NCBI RefSeq assembly: GCF_001544615.1
Contig: NZ_FCNV02000001.1
Coordinates: 620,001 to 684,000 of the forward strand
DNA length: 64,000 nt
DNA from: Caballeronia concitans
GTDB lineage: Bacteria > Pseudomonadota > Gammaproteobacteria > Burkholderiales > Burkholderiaceae
Direction of reading: 5' to 3'
In this document: one piece after another, positions 32,311 through 36,324 of the stretch
Layout of the letters: each line of letters begins with the position of its first letter
Position numbering within the stretch: the first letter of the stretch is position 1
Notes under the pieces: model-generated
The model's input: the letters and a program-made list of their open reading frames with translations, nothing else
Databases searched by the model: none
Told to the model about the DNA's origin: nothing
Made by a program: the position numbers and the translations under genes

Positions 32311-33387
32311 ATGAAAGAAAGAAACCGCTTAAGAGAGATACTCGAGAAAAAATCGCGCTCTTTGGGTAGGTACCTGCCAGGCAGAAGTGAATTGCAGGAC
32401 CTCGACCGGATGCTGGAATGCCATGGCGATAGTTCGATTGTTAACTCACTGACAATGGTCGGGCTAGCGGGTTGCATCGAAGTTTCGGTGCGTAATGCGA
32501 TTGAAAGATTAATCGACCACGGCGCCCCTTATGTTGATAGATTAGACCAGTTCAAAAAGTGCTTAGAGTTTGATCTTCAACTGACGAAGGCGCTAAGTGA
32601 TGGTGAGATAACGTTTGGTAATCTAGTGGCGCATCTCTTGCCAGTTAGCAACCTGTCTCATATAGCGTCGCATCTTGAGAAACTGCTGAATGGCGATGGG
32701 CATTCGAAATCTCTGGCAAGGTGGCTGTCTGACATCCAGCCGTTCGTTGAACCCGATGACGATTACCTATCCAGCGAAGACCTCCAAGACGAGTGCGGTC
32801 GCCGTGGAATGAGCTTTGGGTCGTTTGCTATGCGCCCCGTGCGTTTTCCGATCTCGAACGTTCCGACGGTGCTCGCTGATATTGAGAAGATTTTTGTCGT
32901 CCGCCATATCGTTGCTCACGAGGCGGATTTCAGTAACGTAACGCTGCAGCAGATCGACGTGCTGCTTGGTAGCGCGACAGTGTTTGCAACTGCCCTTCAC
33001 GAACTCGTCGAGCAGGTATTGCATCCGGGCGAGCCGCGATCGGTGGTCCGCACCACCGTTCGCGACGCACGCCAGATTCAACGATTCTACGCAACGATTC
33101 TCGACCGGGAGAACGAGGCGATGCGCGCGTTGGCTGCGCGCGGACAATCAGCGTTCTCGGCTATTGGTCATTTCCAGAAGGCTAGTCGAGCATTCTTAGA
33201 TCACGTTGAGGCGGAAGTACGGTTCACGATGCAGGCCAACCCGATTCAGGACCGTTGCAACTGTCGCAGCCTCGAAACGAGTGTCAGAAAGAGCTTTTAT
33301 GACCATCGCTACACTTATCTAGGCAGTGAAATCGACGCTTTGACGTCCATGAACGATTTTCTCTTTGATTGCTCCAAGTGGCGTTAA
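32311..33387 (+). CDS. Orphan protein with HEPN-like RX4H motif
   Basis: A 358-aa protein I cannot assign by name. Residues 40-130 and 185-240 are helical. An early helix holds an acidic position (GCIEVSVRNAIERLIDH, residues 54-70), and a later helix has VVRHIVAHEAD with R198-x4-H203, the spacing used by HEPN ribonucleases, in an arrangement like the RiboL-PSP/MAE_28990 HEPN group. The C-terminal 120 residues have no recognised motif. It is far richer in A+T at its 5' half than its neighbours, has no partner gene, no clear Shine-Dalgarno site, and a TTATAA 4 nt before the ATG, which may make it leaderless. Probably horizontally acquired; a defence or toxin role is only an inference. Confidence 0.75.
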   Translation: MKERNRLREILEKKSRSLGRYLPGRSELQDLDRMLECHGDSSIVNSLTMVGLAGCIEVSVRNAIERLIDHGAPYVDRLDQFKKCLEFDLQLTKALSDGEITFGNLVAHLLPVSNLSHIASHLEKLLNGDGHSKSLARWLSDIQPFVEPDDDYLSSEDLQDECGRRGMSFGSFAMRPVRFPISNVPTVLADIEKIFVVRHIVAHEADFSNVTLQQIDVLLGSATVFATALHELVEQVLHPGEPRSVVRTTVRDARQIQRFYATILDRENEAMRALAARGQSAFSAIGHFQKASRAFLDHVEAEVRFTMQANPIQDRCNCRSLETSVRKSFYDHRYTYLGSEIDALTSMNDFLFDCSKWR

Positions 33388-33410: not shown

Positions 33411-33462
33411 GGGGAACTCGATAAGTGGAATAGAAATTCCACCTATCGAGAATCAATTCCCC
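33411..33462. repeat. Long inverted repeat between the orphan gene and aroG
   Basis: CTCGATAAGTGGAAT at 33417-33431 and ATTCCACCTATCGAG at 33436-33450 pair at 14 of 15 positions around an AGAA loop. GGGGAA and TTCCCC extend the stem outside a small bulge. The outer part overlaps the last codons of aroG on the minus strand. It probably terminates both converging transcripts, although there is no T-run; it might also be a relic of the event that brought in the orphan gene. Confidence 0.7.
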
Positions 33463-34526
33463 CCACCCCTCACAACGCGCCGCTGCTTCACCGCAGCCGC
33501 GAGTCCTTCGAGAACGCCGACGCTCTCATCCCATCCGATACAAGCATCCGTAACGCTTTGCCCGTAGGTAAGTTCGCCGCCTTCCTTCAAATCCTGCCGC
33601 CCCGCGACCAAATGCGACTCCACCATGACGCCGACGATCCGCTCATCGCCCGCCGCCAATTGCCGTCCGATATCCGCACAAACCGGAATCTGATTCTCAT
33701 GCTTCTTCGAGCTATTAGCATGACTCGCATCGATCATTAAGCGCGCGGCCAACCCGGCCTTCCCAATATCGCTACAAGCTGCATCGACCGAAGCGGCATC
33801 GTAATTCGGCGCTTTGCCGCCGCGCAGAATGATATGGCAGTCCTCATTCCCCGCAGTAGAAACAATCGCCGAATGACCGCCCTTGGTCACGGACAAGAAG
33901 TGATGCGGCTGCGAAGCCGCTTTAATCGCATCGACGGCGATTTTGACATTCCCATCCGTGCCGTTCTTGAAGCCGACGGGACAGGAAAGACCTGACGCAA
34001 GCTCGCGATGAACCTGCGACTCAGTCGTCCGCGCGCCAATCGCGCCCCACGAAATCAGATCGGCGATATATTGCGGACTGATCATATCCAGGTACTCAGT
34101 CCCAGCGGGAAGACCAAGCTCATTGATATGCATGAGCAATTCCCGCGCGCCGCGCAATCCATCGTTGATCTTGAAGCTGTTATCCATATACGGATCGTTG
34201 ATCAGCCCCTTCCAGCCCACCGTCGTGCGCGGCTTTTCGAAATAAACCCGCATCACGATTTCCAGTTCCCCCGCGAACCGCTTGCGCTGCTCGATCAACC
34301 GCCCGGCATATTCCATCGCCGCCTTGGGATCGTGAATCGAGCACGGCCCGATGATCACGATCAGCCGGTCATCCATGCCGTGCAGAATGCGATGCATCGA
34401 CTGCCGCGCGTTGAAAATGAGATCGGACACCGGCTCCGTGCATGGGAATTCGCGAATCAGATGCGCGGGCGGCACGAGCTCTTTCAACTCACGGATACGA
34501 ACGTCATCGGTATTGTGCGGGGGCAT
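33453..34526 (-). CDS. aroG: 3-deoxy-7-phosphoheptulonate (DAHP) synthase, type I
   Basis: A 357-aa enzyme joining phosphoenolpyruvate and erythrose 4-phosphate at the entry of the shikimate pathway. It shows IIGPCSIHDPKAA, RVYFEKPRTTVGWKG, GARTTESQVHRE and VGFKNGTDG, all diagnostic of the AroFGH class that is feedback-inhibited by an aromatic amino acid. GGAG lies before the ATG at 34526; the frame extends upstream into the leader but is not coding there. A leader peptide rich in Phe, Tyr and Trp codons and an attenuator precede it, so expression is probably tied to charged aromatic tRNA. It is convergent with the orphan gene. Confidence 0.96.
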   Translation of the reverse strand: MPPHNTDDVRIRELKELVPPAHLIREFPCTEPVSDLIFNARQSMHRILHGMDDRLIVIIGPCSIHDPKAAMEYAGRLIEQRKRFAGELEIVMRVYFEKPRTTVGWKGLINDPYMDNSFKINDGLRGARELLMHINELGLPAGTEYLDMISPQYIADLISWGAIGARTTESQVHRELASGLSCPVGFKNGTDGNVKIAVDAIKAASQPHHFLSVTKGGHSAIVSTAGNEDCHIILRGGKAPNYDAASVDAACSDIGKAGLAARLMIDASHANSSKKHENQIPVCADIGRQLAAGDERIVGVMVESHLVAGRQDLKEGGELTYGQSVTDACIGWDESVGVLEGLAAAVKQRRVVRGGGN

Positions 34527-34570: not shown

Positions 34571-34600
34571 AAAAAAAACCGCCAGACTCGCTGGCGGTTT
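34571..34600 (-). terminator. Attenuator (intrinsic terminator) in the aroG leader
   Basis: On the minus strand AAACCGCCAG and CTGGCGGTTT pair perfectly over 10 bp with loop CGAGT, followed by a run of Ts. It lies 45 bp before the aroG ATG and after the 26-codon leader ORF, so it can only stop transcription before aroG. Its 5' arm CCGCCAG is also complementary to CTGGCGG inside the leader ORF. Confidence 0.88.
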
Positions 34601-34617
34601 CTCGGGATTCGGTTTTT

Positions 34618-34698
34618 TCAACCTGCGTACGACTTACCCTCTCGATCCGCCAGCGGCCTGAGATGCCAAAAGAAATAAAAATAAAACTTGGCGGACAT
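34618..34698 (-). CDS. aroG leader peptide
   Basis: A 26-codon ORF on the minus strand 92 bp upstream of aroG. Residues 5-11 are FYFYFFW, seven aromatic residues in a row, with one more Tyr at position 24. This is what is expected of a ribosome-stalling leader peptide responding to Phe, Tyr and perhaps Trp tRNA charging. It ends 18 bp before the attenuator stem. A good Shine-Dalgarno site is not obvious, which is the main weakness. I have not seen this named for this organism. Confidence 0.8.
   Translation of the reverse strand: MSAKFYFYFFWHLRPLADREGKSYAG
34647..34653 (-). promoter_or_regulatory. Antiterminator arm within the aroG leader ORF
   Basis: CTGGCGG in leader codons 16-18 is identical to the 3' arm of the attenuator and can compete with it for the 5' arm CCGCCAG (34591-34597). 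Pairing would free the 3' arm and prevent termination while a ribosome is stalled on the upstream aromatic codons. Confidence 0.7.
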
Positions 34699-34857
34699 GA
34701 TGAGTCGGATCGGACGTCGAAAAAAGTTGTGACTGACTTTATAACCTCAAACACGCGGCGCTGACAACCCGTCGCGCTGCAAACGCGGGCATTCCGCATC
34801 GACCGACGCGGCCAAGCCGCAAACAAACCCGTTCGATGCGGAAAAGCCGCATAAAAA

Positions 34858-36324
34858 TCAAACCGTGCCGCCCACCGTCATCTTCTCGATGCGCAACGTC
34901 GGCTGACCGACGCCCACCGGCACGCTCTGGCCTTCCTTGCCGCACACGCCGACGCCGCTATCCAGCGACATATCGTTGCCGATCATCGTCACGTATTTGA
35001 GCGATTCCGGCCCGCTGCCGATCAGCGTCGCGCCCTTCACCGGATACGTGATCTTGCCGTTCTCGATCATGTACGCCTCGGACGCCGAGAACACGAACTT
35101 GCCGTTGGTGATGTCCACCTGTCCGCCGCCGAAATTCACCGCGTACAGCCCGTTTTTCACCGACGCGAGAATCTCCTGCGGGTCCTTGTCGCCGTTGAGC
35201 ATGTACGTGTTCGTCATGCGCGGCATCGGCAGCGCGGCGTAGGATTCGCGGCGCGCGTTGCCCGTCACCGGCATCTTCATCAGGCGCGCGTTCAGGGAAT
35301 CCTGAATGTAGCCCTTCAGAATGCCGTCCTCGATCAGCGTCGTGCACTGCGTCGGGTTGCCTTCATCGTCGATATTGAGCGAGCCGCGCCGATTCGGCAG
35401 CGTGCCGTCATCGACGACCGTGACGCCCTTCGCCGCCACCTGCTCGCCGATGCGTCCCGCGAACGCCGACGATCCCTTGCGGTTGAAATCGCCCTCAAGG
35501 CCGTGCCCGACCGCCTCGTGCAGCAGCACGCCCGGCCAGCCCGGCCCGAGCACGACGGTCATCGCGCCGGCCGGAGCAGGGCGCGCTTCGAGATTGACGA
35601 GCGCCGCGTGGACGGCGTCGTCGCAATACTTGTTCAGCACGTCGTCGGTGAAATAGCCATAGTCGAAGCGTCCGCCGCCGCCGCCCGTGCCGATCTCGCG
35701 CCGGCCGTTCTGCTCGGCGATCACCGTCACCGAGACGCGCACGAGCGGGCGCACGTCCGCGGCGAGCGCGCCGTCGCTGCGCGCGACGAGCACCACGTCG
35801 TATTCGCCCGCGAGGCCCGCCATCACCTGCACGATGCGCGGATCGCGGCTGCGCGCCATCTGTTCGACGCGCTCGAGCAGCTTCACCTTCGCGTTCGCAT
35901 CGAGCGAATGCAGCGGATCGGCGGGCAGGTAGAGGTCGCGGCCCGACACGCCCGTGAGCGTGCTGGCCGGCTTGACCTTGTGCTTGCCGCCGCCCGCCTT
36001 GGCGATCGCGCGCGTGGCGAGCGCGGCCTGACGGATGGAGTCGGGCGAAAGATCGTCGGAATAGGCGAAAGCCGTGCGCTCGCCCGAGACGGCGCGCACG
36101 CCGACGCCCTGATCGATGCTGAAGCTGCCCGATTTGACGATGCCTTCTTCGAGACTCCACGCTTCGCTGCGCGTGGACTGGAAATAGAGATCGGCGTAAT
36201 CGACGCGGTGCGTGAAGATTTCCGCGAGCGTACGCGTGATGAGCCCTTCGTCGAGGCCGTAGGGCGTCAGCAAGACGTCCTTCGCCGTGACGAGGTTGCG
36301 AATGCCGGGTTCGATGATGTTCAT
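34858..36324 (-). CDS. tldD: Metalloprotease TldD
   Basis: A 488-aa zinc protease that with TldE (PmbA) degrades unfolded peptides and matures microcin- or CcdA-type substrates. The HExxxH zinc motif is H269-E270-x-x-x-H273 in [13 protein letters not shown], preceded by the glycine-rich [14 protein letters not shown]. Length is typical. tldE is not in this window. It is downstream of the nitrilase-family gene and yhdP, an order (yhdP-nit-tldD) seen in many proteobacteria. Confidence 0.96.

Follow-up and report, generated by a model that had tools for sequence, protein, structure and literature searches.

What does the short open reading frame (ORF) in front of aroG do in Caballeronia concitans? 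It lies on the minus strand of the DNA analyzed here, a stretch of 64,000 nucleotides (the window), and an earlier note had read it as the leader of a trp- or phe-type attenuator that adjusts transcription of the shikimate pathway entry enzyme to the charging of aromatic tRNAs. The comparative evidence, comprising conservation, pairing and geometry, supports that reading. We conclude from it that a ribosome-mediated transcription attenuator very probably couples aroG to charged tRNA-Phe and tRNA-Tyr, and to charged tRNA-Trp in those leaders where Trp is present.

The leader and its surroundings in the window

The letters bear out the 26-codon minus-strand ORF that the earlier note described (34698-34618), with its uninterrupted run of seven aromatic codons; it reads MSAKFYFYFFWHLRPLADREGKSYAG (Table 1). 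A degenerate FYFYFFW pattern allowing up to three mismatches has one match in the window, compared with 0.01 in shuffled sequence. At the aromatic codon frequency of four window ORFs (0.059), seven such codons in succession would occur by chance at about 2e-9 per site. The perfect 10-bp terminator with a T-run ahead of the DAHP synthase start is present as described: the arms AAACCGCCAG (34600-34591) and CTGGCGGTTT (34585-34576) pair without a mismatch around the loop CGAGT, and the last three T of CTGGCGGTTT fall within the run of eight T (34578-34571). Inside the ORF, CTGGCGG (34653-34647) is the reverse complement of CCGCCAG (34597-34591) in the terminator 5' arm. A further arm, region 1, was overlooked in the earlier note and lies directly after the start codon. 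On their predicted pairings, regions 1 to 4 constitute a four-segment, trp-like layout. When the window leader is folded without a masking ribosome, a 1:2 hairpin forms alongside the terminator; the unconstrained fold is slightly more stable than those of shuffled sequences (z -1.81; 6 of 200 as stable).

Table 1. Features of the aroG leader region, in window coordinates
Feature	Positions	Strand	Evidence
-35 box TTGTCA of the putative leader-transcript promoter	34762..34767	minus	inferred from letters
-10 box TATAAA, 18 nt past the -35 box	34738..34743	minus	promoter scan of leader regions
Leader ORF, 26 codons	34618..34698	minus	ATG...TGA; conserved short ORF across relatives
Region 1, UCCGCCA	34689..34695	minus	pairs with region 2 in 88.0% of cells
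Seven consecutive aromatic control codons, Phe-Tyr-Phe-Tyr-Phe-Phe-Trp	34666..34686	minus	pattern matches, codon variation
Conserved UCUC tract before region 2, codons 12-13	34660..34663	minus	codon usage, alignment
Region 2, CUGGCGG, antiterminator arm within leader ORF	34647..34653	minus	alignment pairing, swap tests
Conserved purine tract GAGA(G) after region 2, codons 19-20	34640..34643	minus	codon usage, alignment
Intrinsic terminator: 10-bp stem, 5-nt loop, 8-T run	34571..34600	minus	perfect stem; alignment pairing
Region 3, CCGCCAG, common to antiterminator and terminator	34591..34597	minus	alignment pairing
Region 4, CUGGCGG, terminator 3' arm	34579..34585	minus	99.2% of cells paired 3:4, with two-sided changes in 24
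aroG, DAHP synthase type I, 357 aa, regulated gene	33453..34526	minus	Pfam PF00793 (DAHP_synth_1), E 6.4e-96

Also overlooked was a promoter-like TTGTCA-N18-TATAAA (34767-34738), from which a transcript would start near 34731 and run for about 33 nt before the leader ATG. Among the 103 leader regions collected from the family (see below), the best -35 hexamer is TTGTCA or TTGCCA in 55 and the best -10 hexamer TATAAA in 77, and 68 contain a site of at least 9/12, all three being counts without a shuffle control. A simple promoter and terminator scan of the window listed neither the leader terminator nor the leader promoter, presumably owing to possible extension of the hairpin into the T-run and to the scan's requirement for T at the sixth -10 base.

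The aroG ATG starts at 34526, 44 nt past the T-run, and is preceded by a Shine-Dalgarno-like GGAG (34537-34534). The leader start has no Shine-Dalgarno sequence: the median anti-Shine-Dalgarno duplex energy is +0.1 kcal/mol for the leaders (n = 103) versus -6.4 kcal/mol for aroG (n = 78 of 80), with 0/103 and 42/78, respectively, below -6 kcal/mol. Translation of the leader is therefore not self-evident. Upstream of the leader, a long ORF on the same strand, which we take from its resemblance to be tldD, ends at 34858; the next gene-sized ORF beyond aroG (32311-33387) is on the opposite strand. A second DAHP synthase in the same genome (L002, G000:C15:78508-79548) is 61% identical, and the 400 nt upstream of it contain no aromatic leader, with at most two aromatics per eight codons.

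Conservation of the aromatic run and of the alternative pairings

Matches to aroG were present in 142 of 150 genomes of the family (Burkholderiaceae), from which 110 aroG upstream regions were drawn: 80 were fetched by place, from pattern-positive and pattern-negative genomes, and 30 by the aromatic pattern, a biased subset. A leader with terminator is present in 103 of the 110 regions and in 20 of 22 genera, each consisting of a 17-27-codon ORF with an aromatic run followed by a GC-rich terminator. The pattern of six Phe/Tyr codons and then Trp has matches in 80 of the 150 genomes; 74 of its 84 matches, in 74 genomes, sit 120-284 nt upstream of aroG on the same strand, a count that is free of the bias of fetching by pattern. 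An ATG-initiated ORF in which six or more of eight consecutive codons are aromatic was found in 98/110 family regions (30 of the 110 being pattern-fetched) versus a shuffle mean of 0.05, in 16/49 regions at the level of the order versus 0.025, and in 1/20 at the level of the class versus 0. The order-level regions are part of the 71 order-level genomes with an aroG match, and the class-level regions were those with the best scores among 82. Lowering the cut to five aromatics per eight codons still leaves 31 of the 49 order-level regions with no such leader. The leader is conserved far beyond chance.

Where distant leaders occur, most retain their aromatic codons together with an arm of the GGCGG type opposite a terminator of the CCGCC type, and the peptide is otherwise wholly different; the aromatic content elsewhere comes in other orders (for example FWFYFYSY, FFYFYFW and FYFWHF). 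The seven family loci that have no leader belong to genera g18 (three), g12 (two), g9 (one) and g8 (one). The g8 locus (L177, G028) is from a 1.2 Mb genome and has an aromatic leader broken by an early stop codon, as if decaying. None of the five g18 and g12 loci contains a terminator when scanned for one, and by eye aroG lies close behind the upstream gene in them. Among 117 loci listed in a broad pattern scan of species genomes, 27 have the run, a GGCGG arm and a terminator, and these are titled Burkholderia, Paraburkholderia, Caballeronia, Cupriavidus or Trinickia; the other 90 listed lack the arrangement and are nearly all from unrelated taxa by title, with one from Burkholderiales (L131).

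Variation within the run is mainly at the third base, and the amino acids remain Phe, Tyr or Trp in the 90 distinct leaders (codon 6, TAT 37 and TAC 35; codon 9, TTC 39 and TTT 39). Exchanges between Phe and Tyr are the second commonest change. At codons 5, 7 and 10 the leaders strongly prefer TTT to TTC for Phe (76:3, 74:5 and 71:8), the opposite of the preference in the four window ORFs (TTT 6, TTC 78). The aromatic core contains Phe and Tyr in 103/103 family leaders and Trp in 87/103; among 19 distant leaders, a sample chosen for aromatic content, the numbers are 19, 16 and 11. These core counts suggest that Phe and Tyr are the main signals. Phe and Tyr thus stand as proposed in the earlier note, and Trp, which it had added with a "perhaps", is less constant.

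The pairings were examined on an alignment of the 90 distinct leader sequences (A1). Regions 3 and 4 pair in 99.2% of cells with 24 two-sided changes (slid partners at most 59.3%), regions 2 and 3 in 94.8% with 5 (slid partners at most 51.2%), and regions 1 and 2 in 88.0% with 5 (slid partners at most 52.5%). Region 1 is weak or absent by eye in genus g25, and the 1:2 pairing is not universal. The earlier note had proposed that the terminator 5' arm can also pair with the arm inside the ORF, and had looked to conservation of the run and of this alternative pairing in related genomes as the check on its reading; both are conserved (103/110 regions and 94.8% of cells). In the covariation analysis that it suggested, complementarity is high and covariation is modest, the 2:3 score being no higher than that of column shuffles (241/500 at least as high). 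Two-sided changes are few and covariation remains at shuffle level because region 2 hardly varies. In a swap test on one sequence per genus plus the distant ones (n = 34), a set in which relatedness is partly removed, regions 2 and 3 of the same leader pair at -12.05 kcal/mol compared with -11.23 kcal/mol for swapped partners, and 0 of 2000 permutations were as good. RNAalifold applied to the alignment returned the terminator and a small local four-pair hairpin around region 2, and did not find 2:3. For 9 of 14 Burkholderia (g11) leaders, the automatic choice of region 2 fell on T-rich sequence rather than on CUGGCGG, and later analyses were anchored on GCGG.

The strong conservation of primary sequence around region 2 is also what a metabolite-binding riboswitch or a T-box would display, with RNA rather than the ribosome sensing the amino acid. 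However, 0 of 14 related loci have an Rfam family at gathering score, the best Rfam matches in the window are leader families below threshold, and a ligand pocket would leave the coding signature of the aromatic run unexplained. We regard this explanation as extremely improbable.

Ribosome position, competing folds and known attenuators

Under ribosome-mediated attenuation, RNA polymerase would start some 33 nt upstream of the leader ATG. With the aromatic tRNAs charged, the ribosome would cover region 2 up to the stop codon, 3:4 would form and transcription would end. With Phe or Tyr tRNA in short supply, the ribosome would stall in the run with region 2 clear of it, 2:3 would form before region 4 is made, and RNA polymerase would enter aroG. 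In an untranslated leader, 1:2 would form and the terminator would win. The hallmarks of trp-type leaders are found here: a short ORF rich in codons for the end products of the pathway, an intrinsic terminator between this ORF and the gene, and an exclusive 2:3 antiterminator (region 3 being shared) that, in the folds, is available once a ribosome halts at the control codons.

The geometry was examined by folding only the RNA beyond the leading edge of the ribosome, which was set 16 nt from the first base of the codon in the P site. The gap between the last aromatic codon and the start of region 2 is 7-15 nt in 102/103 leaders and 2 nt in one. With the ribosome in the middle of the run, region 2 is free in 103/103 leaders and 2:3 is formed in 102/103 once region 3 has been made. 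Once the ribosome has reached the last aromatic codon, 63/103 leaders keep region 2 wholly free and 96/103 form 2:3; at the stop codon both counts are 0/103. The full-length equilibrium fold with the ribosome in mid-run has the terminator as the best structure in 91/103 leaders and the antiterminator in 11/103 (3/15 in genus g1, 4/13 in g20, 3/3 in g13 and 1/4 in g8). Since the terminator wins at equilibrium when region 4 is present, the switch would have to be decided during transcription.

These calculations replaced a cruder masked-ribosome model that left the upstream RNA free and allowed pairing across the ribosome; folding downstream RNA only is the usual simplification. The cruder model formed 2:3 before region 4 with codon 5 in the A site and failed to do so with codons 8 or 11; with the ribosome at the window's own stop codon it formed 2:3 before region 4, and its full-length fold was the terminator at every position tried. 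In the full-length fold of the window, a ribosome at the first or middle aromatic codon favors a long antiterminator that invades the terminator loop. We rejected this structure as a general one, as the antiterminator is the best fold at mid-run in only 11/103 leaders. An extension of 2:3 through GAGAGG and CCCGA before region 3 was also rejected, having by eye no consistent partner across genera.

Between 86 and 103 of the 103 leaders, depending on the place of the ribosome, have the terminator as their lowest-energy full-length fold, and the long same-strand ORF upstream ends at 34858, as would suit a constitutive partial terminator, or a terminator of the upstream gene, accompanied by an aromatic ORF that is translated and has no regulatory role. 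A promoter-like site nevertheless lies between the upstream gene and the leader ORF, and the run, the spacing of region 2 and the 2:3 pairing are kept with synonymous change, whereas a bare terminator needs none of these. This makes it very improbable that the terminator acts without regard to the ribosome.

The attenuator that best accounts for the leader follows the logic of E. coli trpL, in which the same four segments pair as 1:2, 2:3 and 3:4 with the control codons upstream of region 2. With the trpL layout as the basis of comparison, the aroG leader differs in that region 2 is inside the ORF, 11-17 nt before the stop codon in 79/103 leaders, and in that its run can combine as many as three kinds of aromatic codon. 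No relationship is known between the aroG leader peptide and PheL or PheM of E. coli. Phe_leader (RF01859) is the best Rfam match of the window, at 20.5 bits versus a gathering score of 55 (E 0.54). This enterobacterial leader of pheA and pheST resembles that of aroG in its Phe-rich short ORF, alternative hairpins and U-run terminator; in contrast, the gene here is aroG, Phe and Tyr codons alternate and are joined by Trp, and there is no Shine-Dalgarno sequence.

Attenuators or RNA motifs have been predicted for the DAHP synthase-tyrA operon in Vibrio, for aroH and aroF in Shewanella and before a large tyrA operon in Bordetella parapertussis (PMC1173090, PMC2659441). None of those described in the accessible parts of these papers is the Burkholderiales aroG leader, and no similar leader peptide is given there. 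Pfam has no family for three leader peptides, NCBIfam returned one unrelated sub-threshold match for one of four, and a literature search with most subscription journals outside its coverage found no description of the aroG leader. As far as the literature and Rfam searches reach, the attenuator is of a known kind and the aroG leader appears to be new. The aroG 5' UTR may be among the 82 short 5' UTRs of B. cenocepacia that, according to the accessible part of the paper, are tabulated in its supplement (PMC5688073).

TyrR and TrpR are conserved in many gammaproteobacterial groups and absent in other classes, as stated in the part of the study available to us (PMC5343134), so attenuation may do that job here. 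If the proposed mechanism is true, the first enzyme of aromatic synthesis in the Burkholderia/Cupriavidus/Paraburkholderia group is under direct control at the RNA level, by a switch of an expected kind. Combined reading of two or three tRNAs, if true, would let the leader detect their shortage jointly at the entry to the shikimate pathway. The leader would also lend itself to studying how signals from several tRNAs are integrated in one place, and as a regulatory site it may be of use in the production of aromatic compounds.

A candidate experimental link to the leader came from glyphosate-resistant mutants of Burkholderia anthina with an expanded 11-bp repeat, placed "upstream of the DAHP synthase gene" in the accessible part of the report (PMC10667639). 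The repeat is absent from the aroG loci examined and from 14 Burkholderia genomes, and is present in 1 of 65 genomes of the genus. At the repeat locus (L299) its position is 3' to an ORF that by eye resembles a DAHP synthase, and neither the aromatic pattern nor the terminator pattern was found in the 3 kb of this locus. The repeat is evidence neither for nor against the leader.

Tracts flanking region 2 and the position of the stop codon

The family shows next to no variation in the UCUC tract before region 2 and the GAGAG tract after it, genera g21 and g22 (5/90 rows) excepted. Codon 13 is CTC in 85/85 rows with Leu (90 rows in total), and codon 19 is CGA in 55/64 cases of Arg, versus 5/203 Arg codons in the four window ORFs. 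By eye, the tracts are kept even where they are outside the ORF or in a shifted frame (G006, G036, G019 and G127). This codon usage and persistence point to a likely role at the RNA level.

Pyrimidine tracts (UCUC, UCCC, CUUUCC) and purine tracts (GAGAG, GGGA, GGAAGG) flank region 2, and could pair to make the antiterminator an H-type pseudoknot, not a plain 2:3 hairpin. Swap tests used 51 distinct flank pairs from 121 anchored sequences (G258 has no anchor). Over all of them, own flanks pair at -5.93 kcal/mol and swapped flanks at -5.82 kcal/mol, with 670 of 2000 swaps as good. The corresponding numbers are 318 of 2000 for the order-level sequences alone (n = 17) and 614 of 2000 for one sequence per genus plus the order-level ones (n = 37). 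In the family alone (n = 34), own flanks at -5.29 kcal/mol are weaker than swapped flanks at -5.77 kcal/mol, with 1961 of 2000 as good. Scored as ungapped stems, 772, 783 and 1049 of 2000 swaps were as good. Because own flanks pair no better than swapped ones, the pseudoknot is unproven, and a UCUC:GAGA hairpin (S1) around region 2, convincing by eye in several genera, was rejected for lack of support in the swap tests. An order-wide family of aromatic attenuators, with a start lacking a Shine-Dalgarno sequence, two or three tRNA species read in one run and region 2 set between pyrimidine and purine tracts, is a tentative proposal that we consider doubtful.

Retention of UCUC and GAGAG in the four leaders with altered ORF or frame is also consistent with a terminated leader RNA or leader peptide that acts in trans, cis attenuation then being secondary or absent. 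A trans role of a leader peptide has a precedent in peTrpL of Sinorhizobium, as described in the accessible part of the paper (PMC7298713). Against this, the pattern adjoins aroG in 74 of 84 matches and the anatomy required in cis is complete, so that a principal role in trans is unlikely.

For the ribosome-mediated attenuator, the position of the stop codon determines how far the ribosome would travel past region 2. The distance from region 2 to the stop codon is 11-17 nt in 79/103 leaders, 22-26 nt in 20/103 and at most 2 nt in 4/103; it is 11 or 14 nt in 66/103 and 26 nt in 16/103. The earlier note had put the stop about 30 nt past the competing arm, farther than in E. coli trp. A long distance holds for the window, where the stop codon begins 26 nt past region 2, but is not general among the leaders. 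Of the 15 leaders from the window's genus, 10 have 21 codons and read GAGAGGGGTGA; the remaining five are longer, with 26 codons in four (the window included) and 23 codons in one. The longer leader apparently arose by loss of one G in GAGAGGGG. The late stop of the window is particular to some members of Caballeronia.

A ribosome at a stop codon 26 nt past region 2, as in the window, would leave region 2 uncovered; in long-stop leaders, re-pairing of region 1 with region 2 behind the ribosome likely substitutes for coverage. The leaders of the genus that run past the usual stop are L021, L018, L019 and L026, together with that of the window (at 34618-34640).
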